IMG/VR virus record: IMGVR_UViG_3300043607_000039
Span: 29,001-93,000 of that record
DNA length: 64,000 bases
Source of the DNA: a virus
Strand: one strand, 5' to 3'
Under the pieces are notes generated by a model. The model ran no database searches, had not been told where the DNA came from, and saw only the letters and a list, made by a program, of their open reading frames with translations. A program made the position numbers and the translations under genes. Shown in pieces: positions 3,044 to 62,226 of the stretch (positions are counted from its first letter, which is position 1; each line of letters begins with the position of its first letter).

Positions 3044-3079
3044 GAGCAGGCCCCAGCTCCCCATCGCTGGGGCCTGCTC
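3044..3079 (+). terminator. Strong 14-bp hairpin in the leader
   Basis: Arms 3044-3057 and 3066-3079 pair perfectly. It lies between the promoter at 2977 and the GTG start at 3100, so it would form in the leader RNA and may act as an attenuator. No U-tract follows. Confidence 0.55.
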
Positions 3080-3099
3080 CTCGTTCGAGGGGGTTGGGC

Positions 3100-3912: not shown

Positions 3913-4019
3913 TGAAACTGAAGTCGTTCCCGGTCATCTTGACCGTGATCGTCGTTGTCGTCCTCTGCCTGTGCGCCGGCTTCGGGTTTCGCGTAGCCAG
4001 CTGGACCCTGCAAGGGTGA
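3912..4019 (+). CDS. 35-residue single-pass membrane peptide
   Basis: Starts at ATG 3912, inside the stop of the previous gene (TGATG). The product is a short basic start followed by about 20 hydrophobic residues (VILTVIVVVVLCLCAGF) and a short tail. It is too short for most gene callers. The overlap start and the clean membrane segment support translation. Function unknown. Confidence 0.55.
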   Translation: MKLKSFPVILTVIVVVVLCLCAGFGFRVASWTLQG

Positions 4020-4061
4020 GACTCACGGCTGCTCGGGGAAAAAGATCTTGAGGATTAACCG

Positions 4062-4090
4062 TTGACGCCACCCGGACGTACGGGTACGGT
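4062..4090 (+). promoter_or_regulatory. Promoter with palindromic spacer (copy 2), ahead of the tRNA array
   Basis: TTGACG 4062-4067, a 17-base spacer with CCCGGACGTACGGG, and TACGGT 4085-4090. It is the only strong promoter seen between 3005 and the first tRNA, so it probably drives the start of the array. Confidence 0.7.
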
Positions 4091-4397: not shown

Positions 4398-4470
4398 AGG
4401 GGTGTAGCTCAATTGGCTGAGCTGTCGTCTCCAAAGCGACCGGTTGCAGGTTCGAGTCCTGTCACCCCTG
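4398..4470 (+). tRNA. tRNA-Trp(CCA)
   Basis: Acceptor AGGGGTG/CACCCCT is fully paired; anticodon loop CTCCAAA. Reads UGG. No encoded CCA tail. Confidence 0.9.
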
Positions 4471-6678: not shown

Positions 6679-6752
6679 GCGGATGAAGCTCAGCCTGGTC
6701 GAGCGCTATCTTGCCAAGGTAGATGTCGCGGGTTCGAATCCCGTCTTCCGCT
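6679..6752 (+). tRNA. tRNA-Gly(GCC)
   Basis: Stem CTATC/GGTAG with loop TTGCCAA; T-arm GCGGG/CCCGT. The 118 bases before it (6561-6678) hold no supported gene. Confidence 0.85.
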
Positions 6753-6765
6753 CCAGTAACAACAT

Positions 6766-6837
6766 GCGGGTGTGGCGCAACGGTAGCGAGGCTCCCTCTA
6801 AAGGAGATGGTTGCGGGTTCGAGTCCCGTCGCCCGCA
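6766..6837 (+). tRNA. tRNA with CTA anticodon (amber suppressor type)
   Basis: Acceptor GCGGGTG/CGCCCGC and a normal T-arm. Stem CTCC/GGAG with loop CTCTAAA places CTA at 34-36 (bases 6798-6800) with U33 intact, so the tRNA should read UAG. Which amino acid it carries cannot be told. Outermost anticodon-stem pair is G-A. Confidence 0.82.
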
Positions 6838-6886
6838 CGTGACAAACACATAGGTAAGAAACGACAAGGTTCATGGAGGTGAACCA

Positions 6887-7882: not shown

Positions 7883-7963
7883 GGGGGTAGTAGGTACGAC
7901 TGGTGTTGAAGGCCGAGGCATCGGAGCGGCATCAGGACTCGGGTTCGAATCCCGATACCTCCA
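7883..7963 (+). tRNA. Irregular tRNA-like element, isotype unknown
   Basis: T-arm TCGGG-TTCGAAT-CCCGA and 3' acceptor TACCTCC are sound and can pair with GGGGGTA at 7883-7889. The middle does not fold normally: CTGGTG/CATCAG forms a stem around about 24 bases, or GCCG/CGGC around 11. Anticodon cannot be assigned. Confidence 0.4.
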
Positions 7964-7972
7964 CACGGAAAT

Positions 7973-9262: not shown

Positions 9263-9451
9263 ATGATGCAGTTTGTGAAGAGCACCAAATGCGAAACGGG
9301 TGCCTGTGTCGAGGTAGCCCTTGGTGAGGATCGGGCGCTGGTGCGCAACTCCACACAGCCAGGCACGGTCAACGAGTTCCCCAAGGAGATGTGGGAGGGC
9401 TTCGTGGCCGCAGTTCGACAGGGAACGTTCGACTTTGACTCGCCCGTGTAG
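9263..9451 (+). CDS. DUF397 protein 1
   Basis: 62 residues with the DUF397 pattern: KSTKCETGACVEVA, ALVRNS, then a Phe/Trp helix with W-EGFVAAVRQGTFD. In Streptomyces, DUF397 proteins pair with XRE regulators such as WhiJ. GGGAGGG lies before tandem ATGs (9263, 9266). Its stop lies inside the next tRNA (9442), a ten-base overlap. Confidence 0.85.
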   Translation: MMQFVKSTKCETGACVEVALGEDRALVRNSTQPGTVNEFPKEMWEGFVAAVRQGTFDFDSPV

Positions 9452-9817: not shown

Positions 9818-10372
9818 ATGCGCCTGCTCGTCAAGACATATGGCCCGTATATCTACAGGTCTGGCAATAGGTTACGTCGGTTCGTGATCCACCTTTACGA
9901 CGACGGCACTCGTCGTACCCAGTCCAATGCCCGATACCTGTTGGAGCAACACCTGGGGCGCCTACTGACAGAAGACGAAGACGCCGATCATATTGACGGA
10001 AACCCTTTGAATGATGACCTATCCAACTTACGTCCGTTGTCGTCTTTCGAAAACCGAAGTCGAGCACATGAGCCTGCGCCTCTCTATGAGTTCAGCTGCC
10101 TCATGTGTGGTAATTCAGCGGTCACGCTGTTGCGTGACTATCGACGTAACCAGGAGGTTCTCGGGAAAGCTGGACCCTTCTGTAGCAAGTCGTGTTCGGG
10201 GACATGGTCCACAACCGTTGACAGGGCGAACCAGGGCAACTCCTGTAAACCCCATAAGACTCACTGCAAGTACGGTCATCTGAAGACAGGCCTGATCAGA
10301 AAGGCAGATGGATCCGTGTACAAGAACTGCAACGAATGTAACCGCTTACGTGCTCAATTACGTCGGAAGTAA
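9818..10372 (+). CDS. HNH homing-type endonuclease
   Basis: 184 residues. The HNH core is DADHIDGNPLNDDLSNLRPLS, typical of homing-type HNH_3 nucleases, followed by two Cys clusters (CLMCG, FCSKSC) and a C-terminal CKYGH/CNECN pair that may bind zinc. It is visibly more AT-rich than neighbouring genes, which supports recent arrival. It lies between tRNA-Leu genes. Confidence 0.85.
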   Translation: MRLLVKTYGPYIYRSGNRLRRFVIHLYDDGTRRTQSNARYLLEQHLGRLLTEDEDADHIDGNPLNDDLSNLRPLSSFENRSRAHEPAPLYEFSCLMCGNSAVTLLRDYRRNQEVLGKAGPFCSKSCSGTWSTTVDRANQGNSCKPHKTHCKYGHLKTGLIRKADGSVYKNCNECNRLRAQLRRK

Positions 10373-12520: not shown

Positions 12521-12606
12521 GGAAGAGCCACCCGATTGGAGACGGGCGCAGTTTTGAAAACTGTTAGAGTCGCAAGGCTTTGGGGATTCGACTTCCTCCT
12601 CTTCCG
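12521..12606 (+). tRNA. tRNA-Ser(TGA)
   Basis: Class II. Perfect acceptor GGAAGAG/CTCTTCC, G73; stem GCAGT/ACTGT with loop TTTGAAA. Reads UCA. Confidence 0.88.
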
Positions 12607-12818: not shown

Positions 12819-12894
12819 GGATCCGTACCCAAAGCCTGGTTTATGGGCCCGCCTCTTAAGCGGAGTTACGTCGGTTCAAATCCGACCGGATCCA
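12819..12894 (+). tRNA. tRNA-Lys(CTT)
   Basis: Perfect acceptor GGATCCG/CGGATCC; loop CTCTTAA; D-stem CCCA/TGGG. Confidence 0.88.
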
Positions 12895-15362: not shown

Positions 15363-15848
15363 ATGCCCGAGTTGCCGAAGTGGTTCCCGAAGACCTTGGA
15401 AGACATGTACCGCCCCGAGGTCCCGGGTCGCACCGTCGACGATGACCGAGTCGCCGAGTCCCATGGCGGCGGTGCCTGCCCCGAGCAGCACTGGGGCGTC
15501 CTGACCGACGGGCGCCGGTTCTACTTCCGGTACCGCAGTGCCTGGGCCTCGGTTCGACTGGCGCCGGCCTGGTATGACGGTGCCGACGTCCACGCCCGGG
15601 ACCTGAGGGTTTCCATGGAGCAGTGGAACGAGGCCTACGAGCGCGGCGACGAGGAGCTACCGAACCTGTACCTCAATCCGGTCGCCGGCTTCCAGGTCCG
15701 GGAGGACGACCCATATCACGGGTGGTTCGACAGTGCAGCCGAGCGGGCGATGGCCTTTGCTGCCTGCCTGGATCAGGTCTGGGATGAGCCCTTCGATGAG
15801 GAGGGCTGGGAATTGCACCGCGGGCGGAAAGAGGAGCCCGACTTCTAG
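15363..15848 (+). CDS. Hypothetical protein
   Basis: 161 residues, acidic, rich in Trp, with GAGAAGAAG upstream of ATG. Segments such as WGVLTDGRRFYFRYRS suggest a beta-rich fold, but no family is recognised. The last base of its TAG stop is the first base of tRNA-Tyr. Confidence 0.65.
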   Translation: MPELPKWFPKTLEDMYRPEVPGRTVDDDRVAESHGGGACPEQHWGVLTDGRRFYFRYRSAWASVRLAPAWYDGADVHARDLRVSMEQWNEAYERGDEELPNLYLNPVAGFQVREDDPYHGWFDSAAERAMAFAACLDQVWDEPFDEEGWELHRGRKEEPDF

Positions 15849-23588: not shown

Positions 23589-26500
23589 CTAGAAACCATA
23601 GTTGTACGATCCGGCGTCCTGCCATAGAGACTGAAGCGTAGAAGAAAGGGCATCCCGCGGCGACGAAATGCGAACCTCTTTCTTTTCACCATCCATCAGG
23701 AAGCGGCAGGCGTGAACTAAGGCGTCAAGTCTGTCTGGTGAATCCCTGGTGCCCCAGCCAACGAACGTGGACATCTGGTCTTCCAGCTCCTGTTGATGAC
23801 CCAGGATGTGAAGTCGGCCCTGTTCACAGCGCATGGCAACAGGCTCACCGCGGGTGCGCTTTCCGATTTTGGTATCGATGCCCACGATGGGCGGCTTGGT
23901 ATGTGCGGGGAATAGGCCCTGCCCGACCAGTTCGAAGTAAGCGTCGTGGAAGACCTGAGACATCCACTTTTTACCGAGGTTGACTTCGCAGACGAGCTTG
24001 TCGGCCCCGAACTCGGCCACCACCCGCCAGGCCTCCAGCGCGGCGGCCCGACCCACGGACATGATCGAGCGGTCGGCTAGGACGTACATGTGCTTCTGGC
24101 GGTCCCGGCCGACAACGACAATGCCCATCTCGTCGTCCTCGCCGGTGAGCGAGGGGTCGACCCCCACGACCGTGGCCACCAGATCGTCGGGGACGTCCAG
24201 GATCCGGTTGTTCTCGATGTCCAGACGGGAGAACAGGGCGCCCTCGAACGCCTCGATGATCTCGCCGTACAGCTCCTGGCGGCCGACCATCGTGCCTTCG
24301 TACCGTCGTCGAAGCTCTTCGATCACCAGGGACGAGAGGTTCGAGGCGTTCTCGAACGTGGAGCCCCGCATCAGGTGGACGGTGCCGTCGCCACGGCGCA
24401 CCCATTCCTGGAGAATGTCCACCGGCTTCGGCGTGGTGGTCACGAACGCCCGGGGGTGGTCGCCGGCCAGGTCGGCCCGGAGGGAGGGCATGATGCCTTC
24501 CTCCCACGACTTCTTCGGGAACTTCCATTTGCAGTTGTGGACCAGGATGCGACCGCTGCCGGCAAAAAACTCCGGATCATCGCCTTCGACGGTGATGTCG
24601 TAGACGTTGATTGTCTCTGGCATCCGCCGGATGCCAGAGATCCGCACCGGGTGATGTGGCGCTAGCCCACGGCCCAACATGTCTTCGGGTGCTCCGTACT
24701 TCGCGGTCCAAACGACGTCGTTGACGTGAAGCTCGGACACCTTCCGCCAGCCTTCGTCGGTCCACACCCGGTGGTCCGGCGTCAGCCTCACGGTTGCGGT
24801 GCCGCCAGTAGAGATTTCCCAGACCTCAGCGTCTGGCTGCGTGAGGCGAGACATGATGACCCTGGCGTAGCCGTTACGTGTCAGTACCTCGTCTCCGACT
24901 CGTACGTCTTGAACCGGTGTCCCCAAACGGGGACCACTCCGCGTGAGAATCGGCTCGTTCTTGGCGATACAGATCTCATCGAGCCACGCGCCCGATGAGT
25001 TATAACCACGACCAACGTCCGGGTCATCCGCACCTTCGGTATAGATCTTCGTGCCCGAAGGGAACAGCACCATGGGGCGTGGGCTCATCTTGTAGCGGTG
25101 TCGAATCTTGCGACGGTTCAGTACCTGGAGAATCCCAGCCGGCCCCTCCATGCAAATCGTCCGGCCGTCGGAAAGCGTCTCCGCGATAACCAGCCACTCG
25201 GTCGGGACACCGCGACTGTCGTAGGGGTGCTTAATCGTCTGGGAGACGATCCATTCGCTGCCACTGCGGGAGTTGTGGGTTGGGATCAGGCCCTCGCCGA
25301 CGAGGTACATGGAGTTCGGGGAGTCCACCGTGATGCAGCGCATCGGGGTCGGGTCAATTCGCTCGGCCCCGATGATCATGCGGTGCTGGGTCCGAAGCCC
25401 CTGGCCATCCGGGGGTACGTAGGTGGCCATCTTGCGGGGGGATGTGAACGGGTTGAACGTGGGGCGCCAGGAGACTCGGTACTTGGCCCCCTTGTCGACG
25501 CCGTAGAGCTGGGCCCGTCCCACATGCATGTAGGGGCGCTGGCCAAGCGAGCGGGCCAGGTGCATGACACCGTCGGCCAGCTCTTTGGTGATCGAGCAGA
25601 ACTCCACCTTGGATGCTTCGCCGTAACCGTCGGAGTCCATGAGGCCAGCGAGAAGCGCCCTGCGCTGTTCCACCGACGCCCAGAGGTACTTCTGGGGAAC
25701 ATGCTTGTTGTCCAGAACGTCGATGTGACGCAACTGACTAACCAGGCCGCCGGGCGTTCCCGTGAACCACTGCCCGTCCCTAGGCCTGAGTAGGCAATCG
25801 AAGCCTGCATCAATGACGCACTCCACGACGTGGTCGATGTCGGCTAGGTGACCGGAAATAGTCCCGGCAGAAGTTGAGCCGTTGCCCAGCCAGTAGCCAA
25901 GTAGCCACGGATCCACCGTCAGGCGCACCTCCGGCAACTCAAGAGCGCCGGTCAGGGGAATCGAATGGTTCAGGTCACCACGGGCGTTGTATGTCAGCGT
26001 GTCTACGAGGTCCTGTGTGGTTCTGATTCGGGGGCCAGGGCCTTCTTGATCCCGGTACGGTGGGTTGCTCTTGTGCCGCTTCATGGGGCGCCATGTTGGC
26101 CAGTCCAGCGGGAACCTGGTCGTGTCGGATTCGTACTGGGAGCGGAGGTACGCCTTCCGATCTCTGTGTTCCCACGTCACCCATTGGTGCTCTGAGCATG
26201 TATCGATGTACAGGCCGTCGTTAAAGGTCAACCGGTAGGCGACCTCTGGGTCTTGGTCAAACGTCGCGGTGACCCGGCACGGCTTACCGGCTTCGTCGAA
26301 AACCCAGTCCCCGACCTCCAGATCACCGAGCTTCTTGAATCCGCCCCGGCCTGGCACGGGTCGACGGCGTTCATCGGTGCTACAGTTCGCAACTGGAATA
26401 GATGTAGATACGTCGATCGCCTTTCCCCAACCGCGGCCAGCCAATGCCAGGCACACGAACCAGTTACCGGGCGGCGGAATCTGCTCGGGACGGGCTACCC

Positions 26501-27886: not shown

Positions 27887-28487
27887 GGACAAGGCCTGGA
27901 TGGCAGGGGTCATTGACCTCAAGGGCCGAATGATCCGGAAGCGAAACCAAGATCGGCGCACCACGCAGACCCTGGTCTACGTGGAGAGCAAGCAGCACGA
28001 GGTCATCCGGGCGCTCAGCAAGCTCACAGGCACCAAGCCCGAGGCCAAGAAGCAGTCGACCCTGAGCGAGTTCATCAGGGTGCAGTGCAAGGAACACTGT
28101 CCCGACGCCCACATTCACGTCCGAGACGGCTGGTCCATGCCCACCACCACGCGGTGGACGATCACCGGCGGCCCGATGGTGGTCGTCATGCTCAGCTTGC
28201 TGCCTTACCTGCGGGTTGACCGCGGGTACCAGGAGGCGATCGACGCGATCATGGAGACTCAGTCGCTCGCCGGCCAGGGTGCGCATGCAATCTGGGCCAA
28301 CATCAAACGGCTCATGGATCTCGGGTGGACGCTGCCGGAGGTCTACCAGGAGCCGATGAAGGCCTGGACCGGGCTGGCTCAGGTTGGCGGCCGGCCGATG
28401 GTGGTGGCATCGGAGCCAGAACGGTTGCGTGACATCACGTTCCTGGATGACGATGAGATGATGGTCGTTGCTGCAAGGCCCCGGTAG
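27873..28487 (+). CDS. LAGLIDADG-like endonuclease family protein
   Basis: 204 residues. Starts with WMAGVIDLKGRM, which matches a LAGLIDADG helix, and has RWTITGGPMVVVMLSLLPYLRV followed by a Gln/Glu helix, the usual second half of these nuclease-like folds. The acidic residue of the motif is preserved (D) but a Lys replaces the usual Gly-adjacent acid, so activity is uncertain. Its TAG stop lies in the tRNA-Arg that follows. Confidence 0.6.
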   Translation: MLTIEDKAWMAGVIDLKGRMIRKRNQDRRTTQTLVYVESKQHEVIRALSKLTGTKPEAKKQSTLSEFIRVQCKEHCPDAHIHVRDGWSMPTTTRWTITGGPMVVVMLSLLPYLRVDRGYQEAIDAIMETQSLAGQGAHAIWANIKRLMDLGWTLPEVYQEPMKAWTGLAQVGGRPMVVASEPERLRDITFLDDDEMMVVAARPR

Positions 28488-35409: not shown

Positions 35410-36096
35410 ATGTCATTCGACGACGATGACGACTGGGGGCGCCCAGTTGAAGGTGGCGAGTTCGCTCGCCCGGAGAACTTAAACGGCCACTTACTGATCG
35501 TGTTTCCGCTGGGTTATGTCGCACACATCCAGACCAAGTTCACGGTCCCTGGAAAGAAGTCCGATGCGGTCTGCTGTGACATCATCGACCTTGACGACAA
35601 GGACGAATCCGGCCAGCCCGGCAAGGTGTACCGGAATTCGAACCTGATGCAGGGCCAGCTCATCGCGACGCTGCGTCCCTGGATCGGCAAGAAGGTCCTG
35701 GGCCGCATGGGCAAGGGCGTCAGCAAGAACGGCATGAACGCGCCCTGGGTCATTACCGACATGCTTGATGACGCGTCCTGTGTTGAGCGCGCCAGGGCCT
35801 GGAGCACGGCACACCCGAACTTCCGCAAGAGCCCGTTCGTTGATCGCCAGGAGGAGGTTGCTGCCCACGCTGCCGCCGTGTCAGCTCTTCCCGACGACCT
35901 GCGGCAGTATGCACAGCAGCCGCCACAGCAGGCGGCCCCTCAGTACGGATCCTCTTATGCAGCACCGGCCCAGCAACAGCAGCAGGCAGCCCCGGTTGCT
36001 GGCTCGGTAGTGCTGTCAGCCGAAGAGCAGAGCGTGTTGGCTCGCCTGCGCCAGCGCCAGGCAGCCGCTGCACAGCAGGAAGAGCCACCGTTCTAG
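35410..36096 (+). CDS. Probable OB-fold / ssDNA-binding-like protein
   Basis: 228 residues. Acidic start (DDDDDW), a beta-rich core (GHLLIVFPLGYVAHIQTKF, VCCDIIDLD, WVITD), then a low-complexity Gln/Ala tail. Size, core and position before the primase resemble phage single-strand-binding proteins, but the acidic tip is N-terminal rather than C-terminal. Role is an inference. Confidence 0.55.
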   Translation: MSFDDDDDWGRPVEGGEFARPENLNGHLLIVFPLGYVAHIQTKFTVPGKKSDAVCCDIIDLDDKDESGQPGKVYRNSNLMQGQLIATLRPWIGKKVLGRMGKGVSKNGMNAPWVITDMLDDASCVERARAWSTAHPNFRKSPFVDRQEEVAAHAAAVSALPDDLRQYAQQPPQQAAPQYGSSYAAPAQQQQQAAPVAGSVVLSAEEQSVLARLRQRQAAAAQQEEPPF

Positions 36097-58237: not shown

Positions 58238-58641
58238 AACTCACCTCGTTCCTTGAGAATGGCCTCGCGCCAGGCGTGGTCGAGCAGTTCATAGGTCACG
58301 CCCGCGAGGCAGTTGTCGACGAACCCGTGCTCCGCCGCCCAGTTCATGCGCTGCTCATGGGTGGTCGTGTCCAAGCGGCCCTGAAAGATCTTCCTGATAG
58401 CGCTGCCGAACTCATCAAAACCAGTCCCGAGTCCGGCCAGTTGACCCAGGACGCATCTGGTGCAACTGCCCAGTCGCAGTGACTCAATGTCCACTTCAGA
58501 CAGTGGCCGTAGACCGACGGCCGGGCCGGACTCCAGGAGCCACGCAAGCCCCTTCTCGGCGAGCACTCGGGCGGCGTCGAGTCCCTCTCGGTGTCGCTCG
58601 GCCCAGTCAAGTCGCTCTGGGGTGAGGTAGGTATCAGTCAT
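58234..58641 (-). CDS. GPxxGL/CVLGQ paralog 3
   Basis: 135 residues. GLAWLLESGPAVGLRPLSEVD, CTRCVLGQLAG, WAAEHGF, LLDHAWREAI. Closest to paralog 2; the pair looks like a recent duplication. Confidence 0.7.
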   Translation of the reverse strand: MTDTYLTPERLDWAERHREGLDAARVLAEKGLAWLLESGPAVGLRPLSEVDIESLRLGSCTRCVLGQLAGLGTGFDEFGSAIRKIFQGRLDTTTHEQRMNWAAEHGFVDNCLAGVTYELLDHAWREAILKERGEL

Positions 58642-59027
58642 CAGTGCACCTCGTACTGACTGTTGGCAAACTTACGGTTGGCGATGGAGCTGCCGTAGAC
58701 GTTGCTGAGGAACTGTCCCTGCCAGCCCCAGTCGTCCATGACGTATTGGGCGAAGTCTTCCTCCCGGAGGACGATCGTTTCGCCCAAGGCCATTTCGATC
58801 ATTGCGATGGCCCGGTCGTAGTCGGAGGTGTGGTCGCGGGGGACTGGCTTCACGATCCGGATGTCGCGCCGCTTGCCGGCGCGCAGGAGATCGATCTGTG
58901 ACTGAAGTTCCTGCTCCGCTTCAGTCTGGAAGCCGGCGAGCGCCTCTTCGAAGATGGCCCGGTGGTCCTCGCGATTGGCCTGAAGCTTGGTCAGCAGGTC
59001 AGCCTTCAGGACCTCGATCTTTTCCAT
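58641..59027 (-). CDS. Hypothetical protein
   Basis: 128 residues from ATG 59027 with CTGGAGGAGAG upstream. Long N-terminal helix rich in Glu/Lys/Leu, then a YDRAIAMIEMALGETIVL segment. No family. Confidence 0.62.
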   Translation of the reverse strand: MEKIEVLKADLLTKLQANREDHRAIFEEALAGFQTEAEQELQSQIDLLRAGKRRDIRIVKPVPRDHTSDYDRAIAMIEMALGETIVLREEDFAQYVMDDWGWQGQFLSNVYGSSIANRKFANSQYEVH

Positions 59028-59092
59028 GCCGCTCTCCTCCAGGAGATCTTGTACAGGACTCTTGCGCAGGAACCGTTCCACCGGACCCACGG

Positions 59093-59629
59093 TCACGAGG
59101 TCCGGATGTCTCGAACCGTGTTCTGGAACCTCCCAATGGCGTCCATGAGGTTCTTCCTGTGGCACAGGAGAGCGTTTGCCTCCTCCAGGGCCGCATCCCG
59201 CTGGGCCTTCAGTTCCGCGACCTGGGCCCTCAGTTGCTCGTTCTCGACGACCATCGTGGTGGCCGGCAAGAAGCCCTTGGCCTTGCGTAGTTCGTCCATG
59301 GCCCGGTGCAGGTCATCCCTCAGCTCCTGGTTACGCTCCCGGGCGGCGGTCAACGCCTTGGCGTACCTGATCCGCTCCTGGTTCCGGTCGCGGACGGTCT
59401 GCGCCATGACGGTGATCCGGTCCCGTAGGAACTGAGTCTTTGTCGAGTCGTGTTGCTGCTCGGCCTGGTTGTTGTGAAGCAGCTGCCGGAACAGCTTCCA
59501 CGCCAAGTCCTCCCAGGCGTCCCGCTTGCGGGCGAAGTTGGCCGAGGCCATGTACGCGACCTGTGCGCCGGAAACCTGTGCTGTAGCAACGTATCCGTTG
59601 CCCACGTTCTTGAGCTTCAGGATGCGCAT
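59093..59629 (-). CDS. Long coiled-coil protein
   Basis: 178 residues from ATG 59629 with GAGG upstream. A short beta N terminus (RILKLKNVGNGYVATAQVSG), then almost continuous heptads. Possibly a scaffold; unknown function. Confidence 0.65.
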   Translation of the reverse strand: MRILKLKNVGNGYVATAQVSGAQVAYMASANFARKRDAWEDLAWKLFRQLLHNNQAEQQHDSTKTQFLRDRITVMAQTVRDRNQERIRYAKALTAARERNQELRDDLHRAMDELRKAKGFLPATTMVVENEQLRAQVAELKAQRDAALEEANALLCHRKNLMDAIGRFQNTVRDIRTS

Positions 59630-59636
59630 GGGCTCC

Positions 59637-60014
59637 TCAGGCAGCATCGACGGCCTCCTTCTTAGCCTGGTGCTTGGTCAGGACTTCGACCCACTCGGCG
59701 GACAGGTCGTGGAGACTGACGCCCCGTCGGTCAGTCGAGTGGAACACGCTACGGGGACAGACGTTGAACCCGCGCCGAGTGACCCACCAACACTGCATCC
59801 AGTCCGGCCACATACCCACGACGGAGATCAGCGCGAGCTTGAAGTGACCCGCAGGACTGGCCTGACCCAGCACACACATGCTGGAGGAGTTCATGCTCAG
59901 CCGGTTCACGTTGACCCGACTGATGTCGAGACCGTACTTCGGGCCCTTGGCCACCAGCCACTGGTAGCCGCGCTCAACGCGCTTACGGGCAACCTCTTGC
60001 GGATCCTTCATCAC
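59637..60014 (-). CDS. GPxxGL/CVLGQ paralog 4
   Basis: 125 residues. GYQWLVAKGPKYGLDISRVNVN, MCVLGQASPAGHF. The C-terminal half diverges from the others. Confidence 0.68.
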   Translation of the reverse strand: MMKDPQEVARKRVERGYQWLVAKGPKYGLDISRVNVNRLSMNSSSMCVLGQASPAGHFKLALISVVGMWPDWMQCWWVTRRGFNVCPRSVFHSTDRRGVSLHDLSAEWVEVLTKHQAKKEAVDAA

Positions 60015-60985: not shown

Positions 60986-61379
60986 TGGAGATCAGTCCCT
61001 TCAGGTGGTTGCGTTCGGCCAGCAGCATCATGAGGTAGCCGGCGGCCTCGCCGACGTCCTCTGGCGTCGGCGGCCAGGACAGGACGAGTCGCTCCATGAG
61101 CGCGGCCACGTCCGCGGTGGGTGGCGAATGGGGCTCGCCGCGGTCAACCGCGACCTGGACGTCGCTCAGCGTCTCCTGGAGCAGGGCCCAGGTCTGGCTG
61201 AACGAAACCAGTTGCACCAGCTTCTCGGGCATCGGGATCAGCTCGATAACCTTCCCCGGCGGTAGCCCGAAGCCGACCCAGGAAGATGCGCCGCGAGGGG
61301 GATGATTGAACCAGTCCTCCTCGGTGACCTCGACCCAGGTTTCGCCGTCCCGACTGAGGAAGTAGCGGCGCTCATTCAT
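60972..61379 (-). CDS. Hypothetical protein with FLS..TWVEV domain
   Basis: 135 residues from ATG 61379, with GGAGGA upstream. Its N terminus RRYFLSRDGETWVEVTEEDW matches the C-terminal part of the next gene, so this is an internal duplication or fused domain. C-terminal half helical. Confidence 0.65.
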   Translation of the reverse strand: MNERRYFLSRDGETWVEVTEEDWFNHPPRGASSWVGFGLPPGKVIELIPMPEKLVQLVSFSQTWALLQETLSDVQVAVDRGEPHSPPTADVAALMERLVLSWPPTPEDVGEAAGYLMMLLAERNHLKGLISSEFD

Positions 61380-62226
61380 CGGAATCCTCCTCGGACAGTC
61401 GGAGGAGGGCACCCTCTGGCTCAGATCCGTCAAACGTCATCCGGCCCTTGATGACTCCGTTACCGAAGCCAGCCGTTGCTAGCTCACCGATCGGGCCATT
61501 GAACCCAGACTGACGTTCGGCACGGATCCACCGGTCCCGGCTGACCTCCACCCACGTCTTGTCGAGGACGGAGAGGAAGAAGCGAGGCCCAGTCCGAACC
61601 GGAGGCTCCTCGACGGAGTCACAGCGGGGCTGGGACTGGAGGGTGTTGTCGTACGCCTCGTTCAGGGCGCGGACCAGCTCGGCCGCCATGCACCGGCACA
61701 GGTGCAGGTCCGAGTCGGTGACGTGTGGGTGCACCATGCCACCGGGTGTCGGGCGGTCGACCCGGTACTCCTCGGCCGGCTCAATGAGGACGCGGCAGCA
61801 CTCGCGCATGGCCGAACTGGACAGGATTACGCGCAACCGGGACCGGCCGATGTCATGGAACTCGGTGAACGTGCGCCCGCGGCCTAGGGGAATGGCATCG
61901 TGAGCCTGGGGGTCGAAGTTGTCACAGGCTCGCTCCACGCCATCGCGCCAGTCGGTGATGACGGGCTGCGCCTTCATCCGGACGTCCACTTGGTTGGCAA
62001 CGTACTCCGAGGGAAACAGCTCCCGGTCCAGGCTGGCCGTCATCATCAGAATGGGCTGGGCGGCATCGTGCTCATGGTTACGCAGACCACCGGGACCAGT
62101 GTGCTCGTGGAAGTGTGCGTCCCAGGCCTGCGGCCCATCGAGTTCGGGTGCGGCCTGGTTCCGGTGCACTTTCAACAAGTGCTGCCGGAGCATGAACAGG
62201 TTGTAAATGTCCTCGGCGTTGCTCAT
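61372..62226 (-). CDS. Two-part hypothetical protein
   Basis: 284 residues from ATG 62226 with GAGGAG upstream. Helical N-terminal region with several His residues (HFHEHTG), a middle region with CCRVLIEPAEEY, then a C-terminal RFFLSVLDKTWVEVSRDRW segment homologous to the N terminus of the gene at 60972. No known function. Confidence 0.62.
   Translation of the reverse strand: MSNAEDIYNLFMLRQHLLKVHRNQAAPELDGPQAWDAHFHEHTGPGGLRNHEHDAAQPILMMTASLDRELFPSEYVANQVDVRMKAQPVITDWRDGVERACDNFDPQAHDAIPLGRGRTFTEFHDIGRSRLRVILSSSAMRECCRVLIEPAEEYRVDRPTPGGMVHPHVTDSDLHLCRCMAAELVRALNEAYDNTLQSQPRCDSVEEPPVRTGPRFFLSVLDKTWVEVSRDRWIRAERQSGFNGPIGELATAGFGNGVIKGRMTFDGSEPEGALLRLSEEDSDE

Follow-up and report, generated by a model that had tools for sequence, protein, structure and literature searches.

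The 64-kb window analysed here, the last part of a 93-kb IMG/VR record (labelled G000), contains a genuine tRNA gene with the amber anticodon CTA (6766–6837, + strand) within a phage tRNA array; if charged, this tRNA would probably cause at most weak and nonspecific read-through of amber codons, TAG remaining a stop and no dedicated target gene being found. The gene was called by ARAGORN (6766–6838, +, anticodon CTA) and independently matched by the Rfam model RF00005 over 6766–6837 with 58.2 bits (E = 6e-10; gathering score 29). This score ranks 20th among the 35 Rfam tRNA matches of the window, and with such a mid-range value for the array the gene is, as far as its sequence tells, free of signs of decay. 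The structure drawn by ARAGORN comprises a 7-bp acceptor stem (GCGGGTG/CGCCCGC), a 3-bp D stem, a 5-bp T stem and a 5-nt variable loop; the anticodon stem contains one mismatch, G27·A43, at its base, the discriminator is A73, and CCA is not encoded, as is the case for most members of the array. The anticodon loop, CTCTAAA, presents CTA together with U33, so that the reading given in the first-pass annotation, an amber anticodon with an intact U33, agrees with ARAGORN, with the Rfam match and with the fold. The gene thus has the tRNA fold, the anticodon CUA and the U33 that an amber suppressor tRNA would need.

The CTA gene lies, according to ARAGORN, 10 nt downstream of a tRNA-Gly(GCC) gene (6679–6752, +; ARAGORN and Rfam) and belongs to a cluster that spans positions 4398–28551 (+), with small ORFs and HNH genes lying between the tRNAs. 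Altogether, this cluster comprises about 45 tRNAs (43 ARAGORN calls and two tRNAs found with Rfam) representing 20 of the 20 amino acids, which makes it a phage tRNA array; CTA is its sole stop anticodon, TTA and TCA being absent. The two tRNAs missed by ARAGORN, whose anticodons were read by eye, are a tRNA-Lys(CTT) with the loop CTCTTAA (12819–12894, +; 46.6 bits) and a tRNA-Ser(TGA) with a long variable arm and the loop TTTTGAAAA (12521–12605, +), the latter also displaying a weak match to tRNA-Sec. Note that all the array tRNAs with leucine anticodons (6408, 7973, 9706 and 10383) are devoid of the long variable arm; short-arm (class I) leucine tRNAs are also found in a Streptomyces chromosome (L234) and in the tRNA cluster of Dactylosporangium chromosomes (L243 and L244). 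The window further encodes an RlaP-like RNA-repair nucleotidyltransferase (112–684, +) and a Ro-like RNA-binding protein (39433–41058, +), both of which fit a theme of tRNA maintenance in a phage with a tRNA array.

Which amino acid the CTA tRNA might carry was addressed by a nearest-neighbour test in which the anticodon was excluded from the identity calculation. The weight shares of the top three isotypes were 0.69 for Gly, 0.19 for Ala and 0.12 for Trp; when the method was assessed with close neighbours left out, its accuracy was 65% overall and 73% at such similarity. The body most resembles that of tRNA-Gly (77% identity with a Dactylosporangium tRNA-Gly), Ala and Trp coming next, and the tRNA-Gly(GCC) at 6679 is its joint closest paralogue in the array, with 71% identity outside the anticodon. 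However, A73 is at odds with a glycine identity, since the tRNA-Gly genes compared have T73; this replacement, together with the loss of C35–C36, would break the Gly identity.

TAG is an everyday stop in this phage. A simple, purpose-written gene caller based on codon usage predicted 115 genes in the 93-kb record, with 64 ending in TGA, 27 in TAG and 24 in TAA; TAG closes 13 of the 55 highest-scoring genes. The first-pass annotation had described TAG as a normal stop, and rightly so: besides these counts, the five stops that it named (684, 2973, 6286, 9451 and 28487) are all TAG. Intergenic composition predicts 37% TAG and 26% TAA, versus 23% and 21% observed, the share of TGA being presumably raised in part by ATGA overlaps. 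A second in-frame stop within five codons follows 6 of the 27 TAG, 12 of the 64 TGA and 3 of the 24 TAA stops, so that no back-up of TAG is evident. TAG stops show no avoidance either, and in log-odds terms the frame that follows them scores as negative for coding as the frame that follows TAA. As a separate observation, the stops at 9451 and 28487 consist of T8-A9-G10 of an overlapping downstream tRNA gene, tRNA-Thr at 9442 and tRNA-Arg at 28478, respectively (stretches 9442–9451 and 28478–28487), so that the stop of the protein gene is supplied by the tRNA gene; the insertion of array tRNAs may set the TAG usage of small ORFs.

The strongest evidence on the role of TAG comes from the stops used by relatives. 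No near relative of the tRNA array was found by Megablast in the phage collection, and a scan of viral contigs yielded none by terminase; one relative, G001 (31 kb), was reached via the ATPase-like gene phrog_10440 (71% identity; 82% over the C-terminal part of the terminase), and G005/G006, G007 and G008 were reached via profile. The gene for the terminase large subunit (23589–26357, − strand, ORF open to 26615; identified by gene calls and relative comparison) ends in TAG here, in TAA in G001, two residues past the match, and in TGA in G005/G006, right at the end of the match. The portal gene, phrog_776, which lies outside the window (G000:C1:25910–27841; profile and relative comparison), ends in TAG-TAG here, in TAG in G005/G006 and in TGA in G007. 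The conserved gene phrog_870 (35410–36096, +; PHROGs and relative comparison) and its G001 orthologue both stop with TAG at one and the same residue, and the extension is not conserved. Conversely, four other conserved genes, which end in TAA here (G000 1215–2060, 3934–4083, 58298–59878 and 61021–61926), close with TAG at roughly the corresponding position in a relative. Altogether, TAG, TAA and TGA are interchangeable in orthologues aligned to their ends (G000, G001, G005/G006 and G007), and no conservation was seen behind the stops compared with G001, which indicates that TAG acts as a terminator throughout this lineage, and that the genes compared give rise to no conserved read-through product. 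Regarding tRNAs, G001 starts at the end of its array, G005/G006 and G007 have three each and G008 has none; no orthologue of the CTA tRNA was found in these relatives, an absence that is uninformative as all of them are fragments. Note that, upstream of the window and beside head and tail genes, the record contains an ORF of 5885 codons (G000:C1:4955–22612, −) almost without family match, an unusual length for a phage protein.

A coding extension was sought behind the stop of every TAG-ended gene, and a long one was found for a single confident gene, which encodes a predicted beta-helix-like protein (1648–2973, +; gene call). The in-frame stretch past 2973 consists of about 70 nt, a strong, terminator-like hairpin (about 3044–3089) and a separate ORF; the positive extension is thus accounted for by the hairpin and the independent downstream ORF. 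Searches of Pfam and PHROGs with the protein joined across this TAG gave no convincing additional family match, and the extension is not conserved in the relatives compared. The proposal of the first-pass annotation that suppression would extend proteins therefore finds no support in the sequence analysed, as no coding or conserved extension lies behind TAG and orthologues end alike with TAA or TGA. As for partners, the 93-kb record, itself a fragment, has no match to PylS (TIGR02367), nor to tRNA-synt_2b (class II) or tRNA-synt_1c (glutamyl/glutaminyl-type), the three synthetase families searched; it also lacks a PCRF domain or complete release factor.

These results bear on two readings that the anticodon invites. 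Phages that have made TAG an amino acid codon (code 15) are usually marked by a CTA tRNA, but such a reassignment is extremely improbable here: 23% of the genes end in TAG, and these stops align with TAA or TGA in relatives. For the genes compared, it is in fact refuted, TAG being neither rare as a stop (27 of 115) nor followed by a coding signal. We give practically no credence to the pyrrolysine tRNA implied by the name that ARAGORN assigned to the gene, 'tRNA-Pyl', because this label derives from the anticodon CTA alone and nothing else favours it. tRNA-Pyl has one base between the acceptor and D stems, a D loop without GG and a 3-nt variable loop, whereas the sequence and structure of the CTA tRNA display two bases between these stems, GG in the D loop and a variable loop of 5 nt; the record, a fragment, moreover contains no detectable PylS.

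Two other elements of the record could touch on termination or ribosome rescue. A tRNA-like domain of tmRNA, 84 nt in length (7883–7966, +), sits 1.1 kb downstream of the CTA tRNA; it was identified by RF00023 (45.4 bits for a gathering score of 47; E = 8.7e-16), alignment and fold, and possesses a G3·U70 acceptor, A73, a T arm and a P2-like helix. Its alignment to the tmRNA model covers the two ends but skips the tag region, and it contains no tag frame. The mycobacteriophage DS6A has a tmRNA with a tRNA-like domain alone, and a molecule resembling it is a strong inhibitor of host tmRNA (PMC4131195, PMC11915505). A pattern scan revealed tag-less tmRNA-like RNAs in at least 120 viral contigs (e.g. 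L272, L276, L361 and L390), and an unannotated one is present at 9991–10071 in Streptomyces phage BRock (L395). Among the matches listed, the acceptor is fully paired in 115 of 122 (84 distinct), and the P2-like stem forms 6.3 of 7 pairs within a sequence versus 4.4 between sequences. Judging from these matches, tag-less tmRNAs are apparently far more widespread than reported, and they seem to merit follow-up more than the amber tRNA does. Xanthomonas phage XacN1 was considered as a second case of a CTA tRNA with a tag-less tmRNA and ruled out, its tmRNA being full and permuted. The other element is an orphan GGQ protein (RF-1 domain, 120 aa; 41152–41514, −; PF00472, 5e-16), which matches RF1 over residues 210–269, and RF2 and PrfH over comparable stretches (about 60 residues), and is kept in G001 at 61% identity; the remaining relatives, all of them fragments, yielded no match to it. 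Assignment to ArfB was rejected, the match to the ArfB model (25 bits) being poorer than those to the RF1, RF2 and PrfH models. The protein is devoid of the domains that read stop codons, and hence of TAG specificity; the suggestion that it is connected with the CTA tRNA is therefore not supported. Codon-independent peptide release is a possible function.

The combination of a CUA tRNA with TAG as a stop is known from other phages. XacN1, RsoM2USA and Summit each have a CUA tRNA (PMC5852040, PMC8504454, PMC9022506). Like the present phage, XacN1 (AP018399) has the loop CTCTAAA, a large array and TAG stops, but it has a proteobacterial host, two tandem CUA tRNAs instead of one, an encoded CCA and another tRNA body; targets were sought and none found (PMC5852040). 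The Stenotrophomonas siphophage Summit also has one predicted amber suppressor tRNA, 12 TAG-ended genes and no target or synthetase found (PMC9022506), but only 5 tRNAs, and the Ralstonia jumbo phage RsoM2USA carries 44 tRNAs with one CUA (PMC8504454) but differs in host and genome type. Similar in organization are the actinophage groups Stanwilliamsviridae (Sushi23), Borockvirus (BRock) and Forzavirus (Boopy), which have about 30–40 tRNAs interleaved with small ORFs, a Ro-like RNA-binding protein and a tmRNA or its tRNA-like part; in contrast, no CTA tRNA was found in the stretches examined (by ARAGORN in Sushi23 and Boopy, from the annotation in BRock). Code-15 phages (crAss-like, Lak and others) share the CTA tRNA, but TAG is reassigned there and is a terminator here. 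To these cases we added a survey by pattern scan (CTCTAA loop followed by a standard T arm), which, given its short loci and narrow pattern, provides rough lower bounds: 115 viral contigs were retrieved, and the CTA tRNA was confirmed by ARAGORN in 59, 57 of them with a tRNA of usual length. Beyond the present phage, the survey yielded 42 distinct viral loci with a CTA tRNA and a length of 3 kb or more, 30 of which have a TAG-ended ORF of at least 120 aa. In these loci, the median extension is 13 codons behind TAG, versus 11 behind TGA (p = 0.39) and 8 behind TAA (p = 0.02). A TAG-specific coding gain when TAG is read as sense is seen in no more than 2 of the 42. This suggests that, in standard-code phages, a CTA tRNA alongside TAG stops is a known combination of unexplained purpose that is common rather than a curiosity.

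Could the CTA tRNA be no active suppressor at all, but a by-product of the array that is charged poorly or not at all, or a tRNA sacrificed to host enzymes that cut tRNAs? Its body, nearest to Gly by a test about 65% accurate overall, has A73 and has lost C35–C36, which is consistent with this, as are irregular members elsewhere in the array, such as the 31-bit Rfam match at 15848, and the proposal that phage tRNAs counter tRNA-cutting defences (PMC10264068). However, the good Rfam score, the intact loop and the recurrence of CTA tRNAs in many unrelated phages argue the other way, as does the reported avoidance of the CTA anticodon by tRNA-rich mycobacteriophages (PMC10264068), and we regard an inactive tRNA as rather unlikely. 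The same recurrence in standard-code phages would agree with a dedicated suppressor, timed in infection, whose role would be to lengthen particular proteins of phage or host or to release the phage from dependence on RF1; the orphan GGQ protein and the tag-less tmRNA, through which the phage may touch termination and rescue elsewhere, point in the same direction. Yet no conserved or coding extension lies behind TAG, the sole long one being the unconserved, hairpin-containing stretch after 2973, the authors of the XacN1 and Summit studies did not find targets either, and efficient suppression would alter essential proteins, since portal and terminase end in TAG. A dedicated suppressor is thus unlikely. 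More speculative, and quite improbable, is the idea that the phage tunes termination as a whole and takes control of both stop decoding and ribosome rescue during infection: the amber tRNA would raise read-through, the tag-less tmRNA would block host trans-translation and the GGQ protein would release stalled peptides.

We therefore favor at most weak, nonspecific read-through by a genuine array tRNA. In a phage that probably infects actinobacteria, the array would supply the phage's own tRNA pool, and the CTA tRNA would probably be transcribed and processed with its neighbors and receive its CCA from a host enzyme. If charged by a host synthetase, it would decode UAG at low efficiency in competition with RF1, and TAG stops of phage and host alike would be read through occasionally and nonspecifically. 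Charging could be poor, considering the G27·A43 mismatch, the short D stem of 3 bp and the presence of A73 on a body resembling tRNA-Gly. As gene predictions and comparisons show, TAG is unchanged as a stop and no dedicated target gene is apparent in the sequence analysed; that CTA tRNAs recur in so many phages nevertheless hints at a positive role beyond weak and nonspecific read-through. Provided that the tRNA is charged, infected cells, which use TAG stops of their own, would experience low-level amber read-through, and this bears on why many standard-code phages keep a CUA tRNA.
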